Positions 11,147-17,223 of a stretch of DNA of 24,572 bases are shown here, piece by piece. The stretch is from a virus. Position numbers and translations under genes: made by a program. The notes under the pieces were generated by a model, which did not search any database, was not told the DNA's origin, and saw only the letters and a list, made by a program, of their open reading frames with translations. The DNA is taken from the IMG/VR virus record IMGVR_UViG_3300046559_000319, positions 1 through 24,572 of that record. One strand, 5' to 3'. Every line of letters starts with the position of its first letter. Position 1 is the first letter of the stretch.

Positions 11147-11368
11147 ATGGCGTGGATCTGGAATAACTCGGTGGCGATCTTGAGCGTGGCTGTGGTGGTG
11201 TTGTTGGTCGGCCTCGGGTGGAAAGTCTTGCAACAGCCGGTCAGCCAGGCCGACCGCGATCGGGTGGCCTTGCAATTGCGCGACAGCGAAGAGCGTCTTG
11301 CCGGCGCCAAACTGCGGCTCAAAAAAGCGTTGAGCAATGTCGGTAACTTCACCCGCCCCAATCCTTGA
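11147..11368 (+). CDS. Small single-TM coiled-coil protein on the opposite strand (candidate moron)
   Basis: This is the only plausible plus-strand gene in the window: 73 aa. Residues about 8-27 form one membrane helix (SVAILSVAVVVLLVGLGWKV); residues about 33-65 form a charged helix with heptad spacing (QADRDRVALQLRDSEERLAG). By hand count 57 of 73 third codon positions are G or C against 30 of 73 second positions, the periodicity expected of a real gene in GC-rich DNA. AAGGG lies eight bases before the ATG. Its last 20 bases overlap the 3' end of the minus-strand chaperone extension, so the genes converge. I see no confident promoter or terminator. N-terminal TM plus coiled coil fits an inner-membrane anchored protein such as an i-spanin-like or superinfection-related moron product, but there is no family match to rely on. 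A non-coding chance frame remains possible. Confidence 0.5.
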   Translation: MAWIWNNSVAILSVAVVVLLVGLGWKVLQQPVSQADRDRVALQLRDSEERLAGAKLRLKKALSNVGNFTRPNP

Positions 11369-11501
11369 TGGTCTTTTCGATTGCCTTGCCGTCGCCCTGC
11401 GCGCCCAGCGCGGTGACCGCCAGATCCTGTGCCCGCTCCATGCGGTCAAGTTGCGCGCCGAATTCGAGATAGGCCGCGATCTGCCGCGGCGTCAGCGTCA
11501 T
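11349..11501 (-). CDS. Tail assembly chaperone extension (T-like frame), likely expressed by -1 frameshift
   Basis: A 50-codon frame starts at an ATG overlapping the chaperone stop as ATGA: MTLTPRQIAAYLEFGAQLDR, then a helix MERAQDLAVTALGAQ and a Lys-rich end (KAIEKTIKDWGG). The same frame stays open upstream of this ATG and reads as convincing protein (ALAEIGLAVTALVRRGFPPD) through the last third of the chaperone gene, whose own frame there becomes Ser/Pro/Arg-rich. This is the layout of lambda G and GT, where a -1 slip joins the two frames. A slip at GGGGCAAAG (11579-11587) would give a 205-aa product: 129 residues of the first frame plus 76 of the second. Independent start at 11501 is the alternative, and a sequencing indel is a third. 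Partners would be the tape measure and tail tube during assembly. Confidence 0.8.
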   Translation of the reverse strand: MTLTPRQIAAYLEFGAQLDRMERAQDLAVTALGAQGDGKAIEKTIKDWGG

Positions 11502-11965
11502 TGCATAGTCGGGCGGGAAGCCGCGTCGGACGAGGGCGGTGACGGCGAGGCCGATTTCCGCAAGCGCACCTTGATCGTCTTTGCCCCTTCGCCCGCGCCG
11601 ACGAGGCTCGTCAGTTCCTCGACGAAAGAGCCAATCCCGTTTGGGAATGTCAGCCCAAAAATGGCCTTGAGAAATTTCAACTGGTGCTCGAGCAGTAATT
11701 TGGCCGCGGGCTGTTCGTAAGTCTCGTCGGCAAGATGGCCACAGCCGGCCGCGATGATCGGCCCGATGGCGGCGCCGCAGCCCTGGATCAGGCGCGGCAC
11801 GAAGTCGCCGCCACCGGTACCATTGACCAGCGATCTCAACTCGGGAAACCGGGCGACGATGGACGCGATGGCGTCGAGCGATAGGCCGCGTACCGTGATC
11901 CGCATGCCGTCGATCTTGACCACTTCGACCGCAGTCGAGGGTGCTATATCCAACAGGTCTGCCAT
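11498..11965 (-). CDS. Tail assembly chaperone (G-like)
   Basis: A 155-aa protein directly downstream of the tail tube gene, where lambda-like phages encode the G chaperone that coats the tape measure. The start at ATG 11965 (MADLLDIAPSTAVEVVKIDG) has AGGA nine bases upstream and leaves ten bases after the tail-tube stop; an upstream GTG would overlap that gene. Recognisable parts are ITVRGLSLDAIASIVARFPE, which is typical of the start of these chaperones, and the helix AAKLLLEHQLKFLKAIFGL near residues 90-115. From about residue 130 the frame turns Ser/Pro/Arg-rich (RKSASPSPPSSDAASRP), while the -1 frame becomes protein-like, so the biologically important C-terminus may be the frameshifted one. 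This short form would be the abundant, unshifted product. Confidence 0.85.
   Translation of the reverse strand: MADLLDIAPSTAVEVVKIDGMRITVRGLSLDAIASIVARFPELRSLVNGTGGGDFVPRLIQGCGAAIGPIIAAGCGHLADETYEQPAAKLLLEHQLKFLKAIFGLTFPNGIGSFVEELTSLVGAGEGAKTIKVRLRKSASPSPPSSDAASRPTMQ
11579..11587 (-). promoter_or_regulatory. Candidate -1 ribosomal frameshift site
   Basis: On the coding strand this reads GGGGCAAAG, with zero-frame codons GGG GCA AAG. A -1 slip puts the A-site tRNA from AAG onto AAA, which is well paired; the P-site move from GCA to GGC is not a perfect match, so this is a weaker slippery heptamer than lambda's GGGAAAG. It sits at the point where protein-like sequence leaves the chaperone frame and appears in the -1 frame. 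Other slip points within the roughly 100-base overlap of open frames are possible. Confidence 0.4.
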
Positions 11966-14202: not shown

Positions 14203-14990
14203 CAGCGCGCCTCGTCGTGGAACTGCTCGAACAGGCCGCGCAGCTCGAGCGGCGGCGCCTCGCTCTGGTCCGACAGGATCGGGATGGCGGCATAGGCTTT
14301 GCGGTCGATGCGCCAGCCGAGGATGACCGGCGCGGAAACACCCGGCAGGCCGCGGGCGCCGGCTTCCCCGCGCTCGCCACGAACTCCTGGCGGTCCCTTG
14401 ATGCCCTGGCGGCCGGCCGACGCGATCAATTGCCAACCATCGCCGGGACACGGGCCGGGCTGATCATGCCGGGCAATGAAACTCGAGCCGCCGACCGCGG
14501 CAATGTCGAGCGCCGCATAGGTTTCATCTTCTTTCCAAGTGCCGCGCACCTTCGGCATCATGGCATCGCGGCCGGGACGGGCGAGACAGATCCAGTCGGC
14601 ATGCCCCGGTGCCTGCCCGGTGTCGCGGCTGGCCTGCCAGGCGCCGCCGGCATGGGTGACCACGGCGCCGGCATAATGAACGGTGTCGGGTGTCCATTCC
14701 CGCGCCATCGGCAGTTTTCCGGTCTCGCCCTTTTGGCCGCGCTCGCCGGCCTGGCCATCGATCCCGTCGCGCCCCGCCGGGCCGGCCTTGCCAGGCTCGC
14801 CGCGGTCGCCCTTCTCGCCAACGTCACCCTTCTGGCCACGCTTGCCTTCCGGGCCGGGCAGGCGGGCGAGAGCTCGCACTTCGGCCAGCGCTCGCTGCGC
14901 CATCGCGAGACAAGTGCCCAGACCTTCGATGATGGTATATTGTGGGGCAGGAATGATCGGCTTCTCTGTCATGCCCTCCCCTTTATTCAT
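14202..14990 (-). CDS. Collagen-like protein with carbohydrate-binding-type modules
   Basis: A 262-aa protein built as collagen block, two aromatic modules, second collagen block. After a helix (CLAMAQRALAEVRALARL) come about fifteen G-x-y triplets (residues about 47-95, beginning GPEGKRGQKGDVGEKGDRGE). Then WTPDTVHYAGAVVTHAGGAW with a closing Trp (HADWICLARPG), and a second copy WKEDETYAALDIAAVGGSSF closing with GDGWQLI. These are W/Y/G spacings of CBM5/12-type chitin-binding modules. Eight more triplets follow (GRQGIKGPPGVRGERGEAGA) and a short C-terminal part. Collagen blocks imply a trimeric, elongated fibre. I chose ATG 14990 because it overlaps the previous stop as ATGA, the rule in this operon; ATG 14972, with GGGGAGGG close upstream, is an alternative. 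Head fibre or tail fibre cannot be decided from sequence. Confidence 0.88.
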   Translation of the reverse strand: MNKGEGMTEKPIIPAPQYTIIEGLGTCLAMAQRALAEVRALARLPGPEGKRGQKGDVGEKGDRGEPGKAGPAGRDGIDGQAGERGQKGETGKLPMAREWTPDTVHYAGAVVTHAGGAWQASRDTGQAPGHADWICLARPGRDAMMPKVRGTWKEDETYAALDIAAVGGSSFIARHDQPGPCPGDGWQLIASAGRQGIKGPPGVRGERGEAGARGLPGVSAPVILGWRIDRKAYAAIPILSDQSEAPPLELRGLFEQFHDEAR

Positions 14991-15604
14991 GCTGCTAGCA
15001 GCCACGCCACGATGGCGGCGGCCTCGTCGTCGTCATGTTGTCCGATAGCGGCGCCGCGGATATTGCCGATCACGCCGAAGCCTTGGCCGCGCACGACGGC
15101 GTTGCCCGAACCATCGGCATCAAGCCCTTTGAACACCGCGACTGCCGCACCGGCTTGGCCGCGTTCGCCGGATGCCGCCGCCTTGAGCGCCAGCCGCGCC
15201 GCGCTGCGTCCGGCAACACCGGCCGCGCCCGCGGCATCGGCGCGGATGTGGCGCAGCACCGCGGCGCCGTTACTGGCGGCAACGACGACACCGTGCGCCT
15301 CGCCCCAGAGCGCGGGTAGAACCGCATAGCCATAACCCTCGACCGTTTCCGGCTGCAGCGGCCGGCGATAACCGCCGCCGATGATGACACCGATAACTGC
15401 CGGCTGAACGGCGGCATCAAGTTGATCGAGCGCACCGGCCACCTCGACGACAATGACGGTGCCGACAACCGCGACAACCGCATCAATCCGGTCGGTTGCA
15501 CTGGCCGCCTCGACTACATCTGCGTCGATGCAGACGACCCGCCCGTCCGCAGTGACGCAAAGTGTATCCGCAGTCCAGAGCGTAGAGTCGGCGCTAACTG
15601 TCAT
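14987..15604 (-). CDS. Ala/Val/Asp-rich protein in fibre cassette, function unknown
   Basis: A 205-aa protein coupled on both sides by ATGA overlaps. The N-terminal 40 residues are strand-like and hydrophilic (WTADTLCVTADGRVVCIDAD). Then come low-complexity blocks with EAASATDRIDAVVAVVG and VEVAGALDQLDAAVQPAVIG, the same style of repeat as in the 142-aa protein at 2950-3378. The C-terminal half is rich in Ala and Gly (VVVAASNGAAVLRHIRADAA; AGVAGRSAARLALKAAASGE). It has no membrane helix that would survive the Asp/Glu content and no catalytic motif. The high alanine content makes shadow coding worth considering, but the two ATGA junctions and the fit between neighbours argue for a real gene. 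A fibre-associated structural role is inferred from the neighbours only. Confidence 0.75.
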   Translation of the reverse strand: MTVSADSTLWTADTLCVTADGRVVCIDADVVEAASATDRIDAVVAVVGTVIVVEVAGALDQLDAAVQPAVIGVIIGGGYRRPLQPETVEGYGYAVLPALWGEAHGVVVAASNGAAVLRHIRADAAGAAGVAGRSAARLALKAAASGERGQAGAAVAVFKGLDADGSGNAVVRGQGFGVIGNIRGAAIGQHDDDEAAAIVAWLLAA

Positions 15605-17223
15605 CTAATATTTGCTGACGCGGCCGTTCCTTCCAGCACCTCGATGCGCGCCATCGCCTCCTGCAATGCTTTGGTCAGCGCAGCGATCAGCGTAAACGGA
15701 TTAGGCGACTGGATGCTGTCAGGGCTGTCCTTGACGGCGGTTGCGGCGCTCGGCGTCAGCGTCTCTTGCAGTTCATGCGCGACGAAGCCCCAGCGCTCGA
15801 TGTCGTCGGCCTCAAACATCGGCCCGGTGGCGACCTCGCGCGGCTTGGCCTTGGGATTGTCTTCGGCCTCTTGGCGCGCCTTCAGTGTTTCACTGGCGAT
15901 GTGCTTGATGTGCGACGGCGGCGAGAACTGCGCTTGCGTGTATTTGATCGGGCGCAATGCCTTCACGGTTTCCCACATCTCGGGGAGGTCGGCGACATCC
16001 TTCTTGATGCGATAGTCAGAAGTGAACGCTAAAGTACCTGCAAAAGTCGTATTCACGTAAGCTAGTAGATTGGAAGAGTTCCAGAACAAATTCCAATAAT
16101 TGGCATCAACGGCGTTATTGTCGCCTCGCTTACTCGAAAACCCGCAGCTCACTCCGTCCGTTGGAATATGACCTGGGGCAATTAACGGACCTCCAGCGAG
16201 ATTGAAGCTGGTGCCGTCGTACTGCAAGAATTTGGCGCCGCTAGAACCGAAGTAATAGGTGCCTGTTGTTGTCGTCTTGGCGGCCATGATGTCGCTATCG
16301 ACGATGAATGTGAGGGCACCGAAAAGCGCGAAGTTGGTGCCGTCGTACTGCAGGAATTTGGTGCCGCCGTTACCGAAAAAATAAGTGCCGGTGGTGCTAT
16401 TGCCGGCCTGCACATTGCCGCTGACTGCTACATCGTGCGCGAAAGCAGCAAATCCATTCGAGCGGGTGATGCTGAACGGCGCGTCGATGAAATTTCCGCC
16501 ATCGCTGTACCTGAGAATGTCGAAATTTGAGCCGGCGTTCCCGCCAGTTTCGGAAATGGCATTACCGAGTTCTAGCTGCCAGCGATTTGTGCCGGTGGAT
16601 TGCCCGATAATGAGAGCACTGTCGGGTGAGCCGAGCTTATTGAGAGTTAAACCTGGAACAACCTTTGCGATGGTCAAATTGCCGGTCATGGTGTCGCCCG
16701 ACTTGACGATCCTCAGTGCGTCCTGACTGTCGACATAGGCCTGAGTTACGCCGCCGGCAGCACCCGTAACGGCCGCCAGCACTGGCGCATTTGGCAGCGT
16801 CCCACCGGACGCGGTAACGGCAACCGTGAATTCCCAATAGGTGGTTTTGTCGACCGGCGCGCCCGTGACATCAAACTTGACGTAATTGGTATTGTCGTTC
16901 TTATCCTGCAAAATCAACTTCGCGCCGGTTGTTGCGGCGGAAAGAAACTGTTTGATATTTATTCCGGATGACGTTGTCTGGCTGACCCACAGTTTGGTGG
17001 TCGATGCCTGCACTGCCTGATTAAAACGAACCTGCCCGGACAGCGGCGGCTCGGTGGTGGCGTTGTTGAACAGATACTGGATCGTGTTGCCGGTTGGCAC
17101 ATTGGCGGCAACGCCGGCATAAAGTTCGCTGAAGTTGCCATTGCACTTGTCGAACGATATGCGCAGTTGATCGCCGGTGCCGTCGTTTGCCACCGCGCCG
17201 ATGTTGATGATCTGCTGGGCCAT
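15601..17223 (-). CDS. Fibre protein with C-terminal S74 intramolecular chaperone domain
   Basis: A 540-aa protein. The N-terminus (INIGAVANDGTGDQLRISFD, then CNGNFSELYAGV) is the common docking head of phage fibres. The centre is Gly/Thr/Asn-rich and strand-like and contains TMTGNLTIAKVVPGLTLNKL, plus two copies of a 42-residue unit with KFLQYDGT. The C-terminus is an S74 autoprocessing chaperone: SDYRIKKDVADLPEMWETVK with the catalytic-type Ser and the Lys-rich strand, then RWGFVAHELQETLTPSA, then a trimer-forming helix (LIAALTKALQEAMARIEVLE). Such domains trimerise the fibre and cut themselves off at the Ser. The middle is more AT-rich than its neighbours, as in exchangeable receptor-binding genes. 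It is coupled by ATGA at both ends. The unusual point is its place between portal and connector. Confidence 0.92.
   Translation of the reverse strand: MAQQIINIGAVANDGTGDQLRISFDKCNGNFSELYAGVAANVPTGNTIQYLFNNATTEPPLSGQVRFNQAVQASTTKLWVSQTTSSGINIKQFLSAATTGAKLILQDKNDNTNYVKFDVTGAPVDKTTYWEFTVAVTASGGTLPNAPVLAAVTGAAGGVTQAYVDSQDALRIVKSGDTMTGNLTIAKVVPGLTLNKLGSPDSALIIGQSTGTNRWQLELGNAISETGGNAGSNFDILRYSDGGNFIDAPFSITRSNGFAAFAHDVAVSGNVQAGNSTTGTYFFGNGGTKFLQYDGTNFALFGALTFIVDSDIMAAKTTTTGTYYFGSSGAKFLQYDGTSFNLAGGPLIAPGHIPTDGVSCGFSSKRGDNNAVDANYWNLFWNSSNLLAYVNTTFAGTLAFTSDYRIKKDVADLPEMWETVKALRPIKYTQAQFSPPSHIKHIASETLKARQEAEDNPKAKPREVATGPMFEADDIERWGFVAHELQETLTPSAATAVKDSPDSIQSPNPFTLIAALTKALQEAMARIEVLEGTAASANIR
16204..16395 (-). 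repeat. In-frame direct repeat inside the S74 fibre gene
   Basis: Two similar copies of about 66 bases begin at 16204 and 16330, exactly 126 bases (42 codons) apart. Each encodes a unit with TTGTY-F/Y-FG, then KFLQYDGT and a Phe. The unit length and composition suggest one turn or one layer of a beta-structured fibre shaft, and a duplication that could vary in number between relatives. Confidence 0.75.

Follow-up and report, generated by a model that had tools for sequence, protein, structure and literature searches.

The window, a 24,572-base contig of an uncultivated soil phage from IMG/VR, very probably encodes a lambda-type -1 frameshift at the heptamer C_CCA_AAC, through which a single tail assembly chaperone gene would yield both a protein G and an extended form, GT (probability about 0.93). 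Sequence comparison establishes that the -1 frame is coding upstream of the ATG at 11501, that the heptamer is conserved, that a stem downstream of it has co-evolved and that the -1 frame lacks a usable start codon; slippage itself, and its rate, we infer from the same comparison. An earlier note, made by reading this one genome, had proposed a lambda-like G/GT frameshift in this gene, and the comparison of relatives strongly supports that proposal while moving the slip to a different site.

Relatives were gathered from IMG/VR in four scans, which yielded 111 distinct sequences from many metagenomes. The -1 peptide and its potential start codons were assessed in 53 distinct sequences, and the extension also in 76 non-redundant sequences. 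Stop counts were made in 45 non-redundant sequences and the arm-swap test of the stem in 41.

Genomic setting and identity of the chaperone gene

The genes on the minus strand run in the order major tail protein, G/GT, DUF6441 protein and tape measure protein (Table 1), which is the gene position expected of a G/GT pair. The protein encoded in the 0 frame belongs to the Pfam family PF23789 (Pre_tape_measure), with a score of 48.1 bits against a cut-off of 27, and is thus a member of a chaperone family. Past about residue 130 it turns rich in Ser, Pro and Arg, as the earlier note had described.

Table 1 Coordinates of the G/GT locus and its neighbouring genes in the window
Feature	Position	Strand	Remarks
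Tail terminator	12962-12507	minus	weak match
Major tail protein	12506-11976	minus	upstream of the chaperone gene
Chaperone G (pre-tape-measure protein), 0-frame ORF	11965-11498	minus	155 aa; PF23789 and PHROG 5260 (tail)
Slippery heptamer C_CCA_AAC, 0 frame	11645-11639	minus	TT[C CCA AAC]; sole in-frame X_XXY_YYZ in the chaperone gene
Spacer GGGATTG	11638-11632	minus	7 nt; fold starts 7 nt past the heptamer
Stem-loop 5' arm, GCTCTTTCGTC	11631-11621	minus	pairs with the 3' arm, 11 bp
Stem-loop 3' arm, GGCGAAGGGGC	11593-11583	minus	overlaps the first bases of GGGGCAAAG
-1-frame extension T	11349-11639	minus	96 codons and stop; open from before the heptamer in all relatives tested; conserved peptide
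Portion of T past the in-frame ATG	11349-11501	minus	50 codons and stop; matches PHROG 13355
0-frame TGA stop	11500-11498	minus	overlaps the ATG at 11501-11499
DUF6441 protein gene	11038-10499	minus	between GT and tape measure
Tape measure protein	10492-8372	minus	

In the AlphaFold model of G, block means exceeded 70 for residues 11-40 and 61-110 only, the first ten residues being low, and the segments below 50 included residues 123-142 and 144-151. Structural matches to this predicted model (E 1.9e-4 and 5.5e-5) included the tail assembly chaperone of Serratia phage JS26; sequence identity with G was about 20%. Searches of the PDB with G, both by sequence and by fold, gave no significant match. 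No match was obtained by tblastn of G, the -1 peptide and a 691-aa protein against 50,697 phage records, and no relative was found when a profile of G was scanned over species genomes.

The interval separating T from the DUF6441 gene contains, on the plus strand and so opposite to these genes, a 73-aa ORF (11147-11368) with a transmembrane stretch and a charged helix. Among the relatives fetched it was present only in L002 (88%), the contig of which is shared with L082 and L201. The gap between T and the DUF6441 gene ranges in relatives from a few bases up to several hundred and resembles a slot for extra genes.

The -1 frame is coding ahead of any start codon of its own

The -1 frame over the 3' part of the chaperone gene reads ALAEIGLAVTALVRRGFPPD and runs on, uninterrupted by stops, into a 50-codon ORF (11501-11349), in agreement with the earlier note. 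Across 53 sequences, and also in the 76 non-redundant extensions, the -1 peptide LEEIAIAITALIRRGFPPDYA|MTLTPRQIAAYLEF was conserved without a break through the ATG at 11501.

The distribution of stop codons marks where this coding begins. In the 45 non-redundant relatives, which are related to one another and are not independent trials, 107 -1-frame stops fell at alignment columns 1-98 and none between column 107, the heptamer, and the 0-frame stop. Synonymous recoding of the 0-frame protein gave a mean of 37.9 expected -1 stops in columns 107-140, with a minimum of 20 in 300 simulations, and 0 were seen. In the same relatives, 23.8 were expected and 0 seen in columns 107-127, which precede GGGGCAAAG, and about 21 were expected by synonymous recoding in columns 139-161, with none up to the 0-frame stop. 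The -1 stops go abruptly from numerous to absent, and the place of this change matches that of a canonical heptamer.

Substitution patterns changed over the same region. Upstream of the heptamer, the differences between relatives lay at 0-frame third positions at a proportion of 0.60. Between the heptamer and the overlap they were divided 0.36/0.14/0.50 by 0-frame position, over the final 66 nt of that frame the -1-frame third position became the commonest class (0.44), and beyond the TGA the -1-frame third position reached 0.54. This shift indicated that constraint acts on both frames past the heptamer and that a conserved T domain starts near 11566.

None of the 53 sequences had an ATG, GTG or TTG codon in its -1 frame less than 150 nt from the ATG at 11501, and internal initiation therefore does not account for the conserved -1 peptide. 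The nearest candidate start, at -159, was a GTG present in L035 and L041. These results indicated that the extension is coded in the -1 frame and is conserved as protein ahead of any start codon of its own.

A slippery heptamer conserved in all relatives

The heptamer was kept in all 111 distinct relatives, as CCCAAAC in 108 and CCCAAAT in 3, and C_CCA_AAC is the only in-frame X_XXY_YYZ conserved across them. The codons TTC and CCA at the heptamer were each present in 45/45 sequences of the stop-count set. Upstream of the heptamer in the same genes, Pro was encoded by CCG 86 times, CCC 56, CCA 37 and CCT 24 (CCA 37/203), and Phe by TTC 50 times and TTT 52. Given this mixed usage, codon preference does not explain the fixed TTC CCA.

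In E. coli, a strong tendency to shift has been reported for the form C_CCA_AAG (PMC5009743). The A-site codon here is AAC, and the efficiency of the shift may therefore be low or host-dependent. A literature search found no paper that gives CCCAAAC for a phage chaperone; Xu 2004 lay outside the reach of that search, and CCCAAAC is therefore not claimed as a new heptamer.

Two further features were observed close to the heptamer. The Thr codon ACA at 11650-11648 (minus strand), two codons before the CCA of the heptamer, is kept in 37/45 sequences although Thr has other codons, and neither the heptamer nor the stem accounts for its conservation. An upstream TTTGGG/CCCAAA inverted repeat in the window includes the heptamer.

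A co-varying stem-loop downstream of the heptamer

In the window, GCUCUUUCGUC is predicted to pair with GGCGAAGGGGC in a stem of 11 bp (-25.6 kcal/mol, z -2.16 versus dinucleotide shuffles). Its 7-nt spacer falls within the usual heptamer-to-structure spacing of 5-9 nt (PMC5009743). Most relatives carry the stem in the form GCUCCUUCG/CGAAGGAGC, and those with altered 5' arms (e.g. L274, L278, L280) form it from other sequences at the same spacer or within about a base.

In an arm-swap test, a sequence's own arms paired better than swapped arms in 36/41 non-redundant sequences (Wilcoxon P 9e-7), and own-arm pairing was stronger in all 14 of the 14 sequences with divergent 5' arms. Against synonymous shuffles the z-scores of the stem were moderate (mean -1.5), and some relatives had weak or alternative stems. 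RNAalifold, run on a MAFFT alignment, returned almost no consensus structure, register shifts having obscured it; the evidence for the stem rests on the per-sequence folds and the arm-swap test.

Alternative origins of the downstream product

Frameshifted GT could be accompanied by some free T, a C-terminal fragment made by termination and re-initiation at the conserved ATGA. The locus would then have three products, and the third would be a separately tuned component in the tail assembly complex; we regard this as unlikely. The ATGA overlap of the two frames, which the earlier note had recognized, is present as ATG|TGA in 110/111 relatives, and the one exception, L030, in which the stop has moved, keeps a Met at the next codon. 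However, no Shine-Dalgarno-like sequence is visible ahead of the ATG at 11501, and the near-invariant Met at 11501-11499 may be a structural residue or, alternatively, a start for re-initiation. Free T would, moreover, be without part of the predicted domain, since the ATG is preceded by conserved -1 peptide and by a predicted helix. Re-initiation at 11501 may occur at a low level in addition to the frameshift, but the frameshift model does not need it.

A slip at or near GGGGCAAAG (11587-11579), for example on an A_AAG tetramer, is a good deal less probable. The earlier note had located this motif correctly and had placed the changeover there, describing it as an unusual, non-standard heptamer. 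The GCA-AAR codons of the motif are fairly conserved (GCA 34/45, AAR 42/45), and the 0-frame substitution pattern lasts to about codon 132. The motif is not X_XXY_YYZ, however; several relatives have no A ahead of the AAR codon (GCC AAG in L042 and L044, GAG AAA in L068 and L074), and L050 has AGG instead of AAR. A slip at this point would also leave unexplained why -1 stops are missing from the 60 nt upstream. The motif begins with the last five bases (GGGGC) of the 3' arm of the paired stem, which can partly explain why the motif is conserved; the motif probably belongs to the stimulator instead of serving as a slip site. Both GGGGCAAAG and A_AAR were rejected as slip sites. The real candidate, C_CCA_AAC, lies about 60 bases upstream and is a standard X_XXY_YYZ, so the unusual element disappears. 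The switch had been put in the region of GGGGCAAAG because the conserved T domain begins late, near 11566; the case shows that reading one genome by eye places the slip at the visible frame change and not at the upstream heptamer.

Slightly less credible again is an arrangement of two separate genes, in which the 50-aa ORF would be translated by re-initiation at the ATG at 11501, after the overlapping TGA and without any frameshift. The recurrent ATGA overlap and the match of the 50-aa part to PHROG 13355 fit such an arrangement, but every relative keeps the -1 frame open ahead of the ATG and conserves the peptide encoded there. In five relatives (L164, L165, L174, L196, L198) the stretch past the ATG is down to 26-31 codons, whereas the stretch ahead of the ATG is never lost. 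Modelling of the extension (96 residues) also predicted a disordered basic linker of about 20 aa followed by a helix at residues 21-38, upstream of Met 47. Two separate genes would, in addition, leave the heptamer and the stem unexplained. On the frameshift reading, the 50-aa ORF that is listed separately makes up the C-terminal portion of a protein produced by frameshifting, as PHROG 13355 probably does too.

A single uncultivated contig might be suspected of carrying an indel from sequencing or assembly, or a gene in decay, that splits one ORF. The 111 distinct sequences, drawn from many metagenomes, nevertheless share the two-frame layout and conserve both frames where they overlap, which makes this origin vanishingly improbable and excludes the indel joining the frames that the earlier note had named as a refutation.

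Proposed mechanism and comparison with known systems

Under the frameshift model, G and GT would both be made from the single start codon at 11965. Most ribosomes would terminate at the TGA and release G. A minority would be held at the stem-loop 7 nt past C_CCA_AAC and would slip by -1 there, from CCA-AAC to CCC-AAA. The slip product, GT, would comprise 109 residues of G and 96 of T (the basic linker and the helical T domain), for a total of 205 aa, the size that the earlier note had given for the fusion. As in lambda, G would coat the tape measure protein and the T extension would recruit the major tail protein, and the ratio of G to GT would matter; these roles are suggested by family and position, by analogy with lambda.

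For lambda, PMC5009743 describes binding of the tape measure protein by G, recruitment of the major tail protein by T and a G:GT ratio of about 30:1; the -1 frameshift was described in Levin 1993 and Xu 2004, 2013 and 2014, reviewed in PMC5009743. The window appears to resemble lambda in that the gene follows the major tail protein gene and precedes the tape measure gene, the -1 shift would lie near the 3' end of G, and a short T extension would be fused to most of G. It differs from lambda in its heptamer, C_CCA_AAC, in the clear stem-loop at 7 nt, in the replacement of about 46 residues of G's own tail in GT, and in the one DUF6441 gene between GT and tape measure.

Within the same G family, the G-T fusion gp55 of Burkholderia phage AH2 has been deposited as a joined -1 gene, attributed to AAAAAAG (PMC3483164). 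AH2 gp56 (G) scores 122 bits in the Pfam family of the window's G and also falls in the same PHROG family, and the G family is therefore known to be used for a -1 fusion. The AH2 heptamer lies at codon 126 and differs from C_CCA_AAC. Comparison of the window's T with AH2 T by hhalign gave no detectable similarity, and a fold search with T gave no significant match. Burkholderia phages BcepNazgul (G-T) and KL1 (gp18/gp19) have comparable G/GT systems (PMC3483164); in KL1, as in the window, GT and tape measure are separated by a gene, but the predicted KL1 heptamer is GGGAAAC. For Caulobacter phages phiCbK and Colossus, the -1 heptamers AAAAAAC and GGGAAAC, respectively, have been predicted (PMC3556154). 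Compared by layout, these phages share with the window a pre-tape-measure chaperone with a -1 extended form and a heptamer ending in AAC, although the heptamers differ. An AAC codon in the A site thus has phage precedents, as predictions.

To judge from its sequences, the locus is a G/GT frameshift of the ordinary lambda type, and its signal is a textbook one; the family of uncultivated phages that carries it is thereby placed in the lambda-type G/GT scheme. It also supplies a compact, deeply sampled -1 signal that consists of C_CCA_AAC and a co-varying stem.

Other genes in the window

An ORF at 15005-14202 (minus strand), adjoining the head-tail adaptor gene, contains collagen-like repeats (GPEGKRGQKGDVGEKGDRGEPG...) at about 14450-14950. 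A tail-fibre-like protein is encoded at 15601-17223 (minus strand), upstream of the head-tail adaptor gene, where fibre genes are not usually found.
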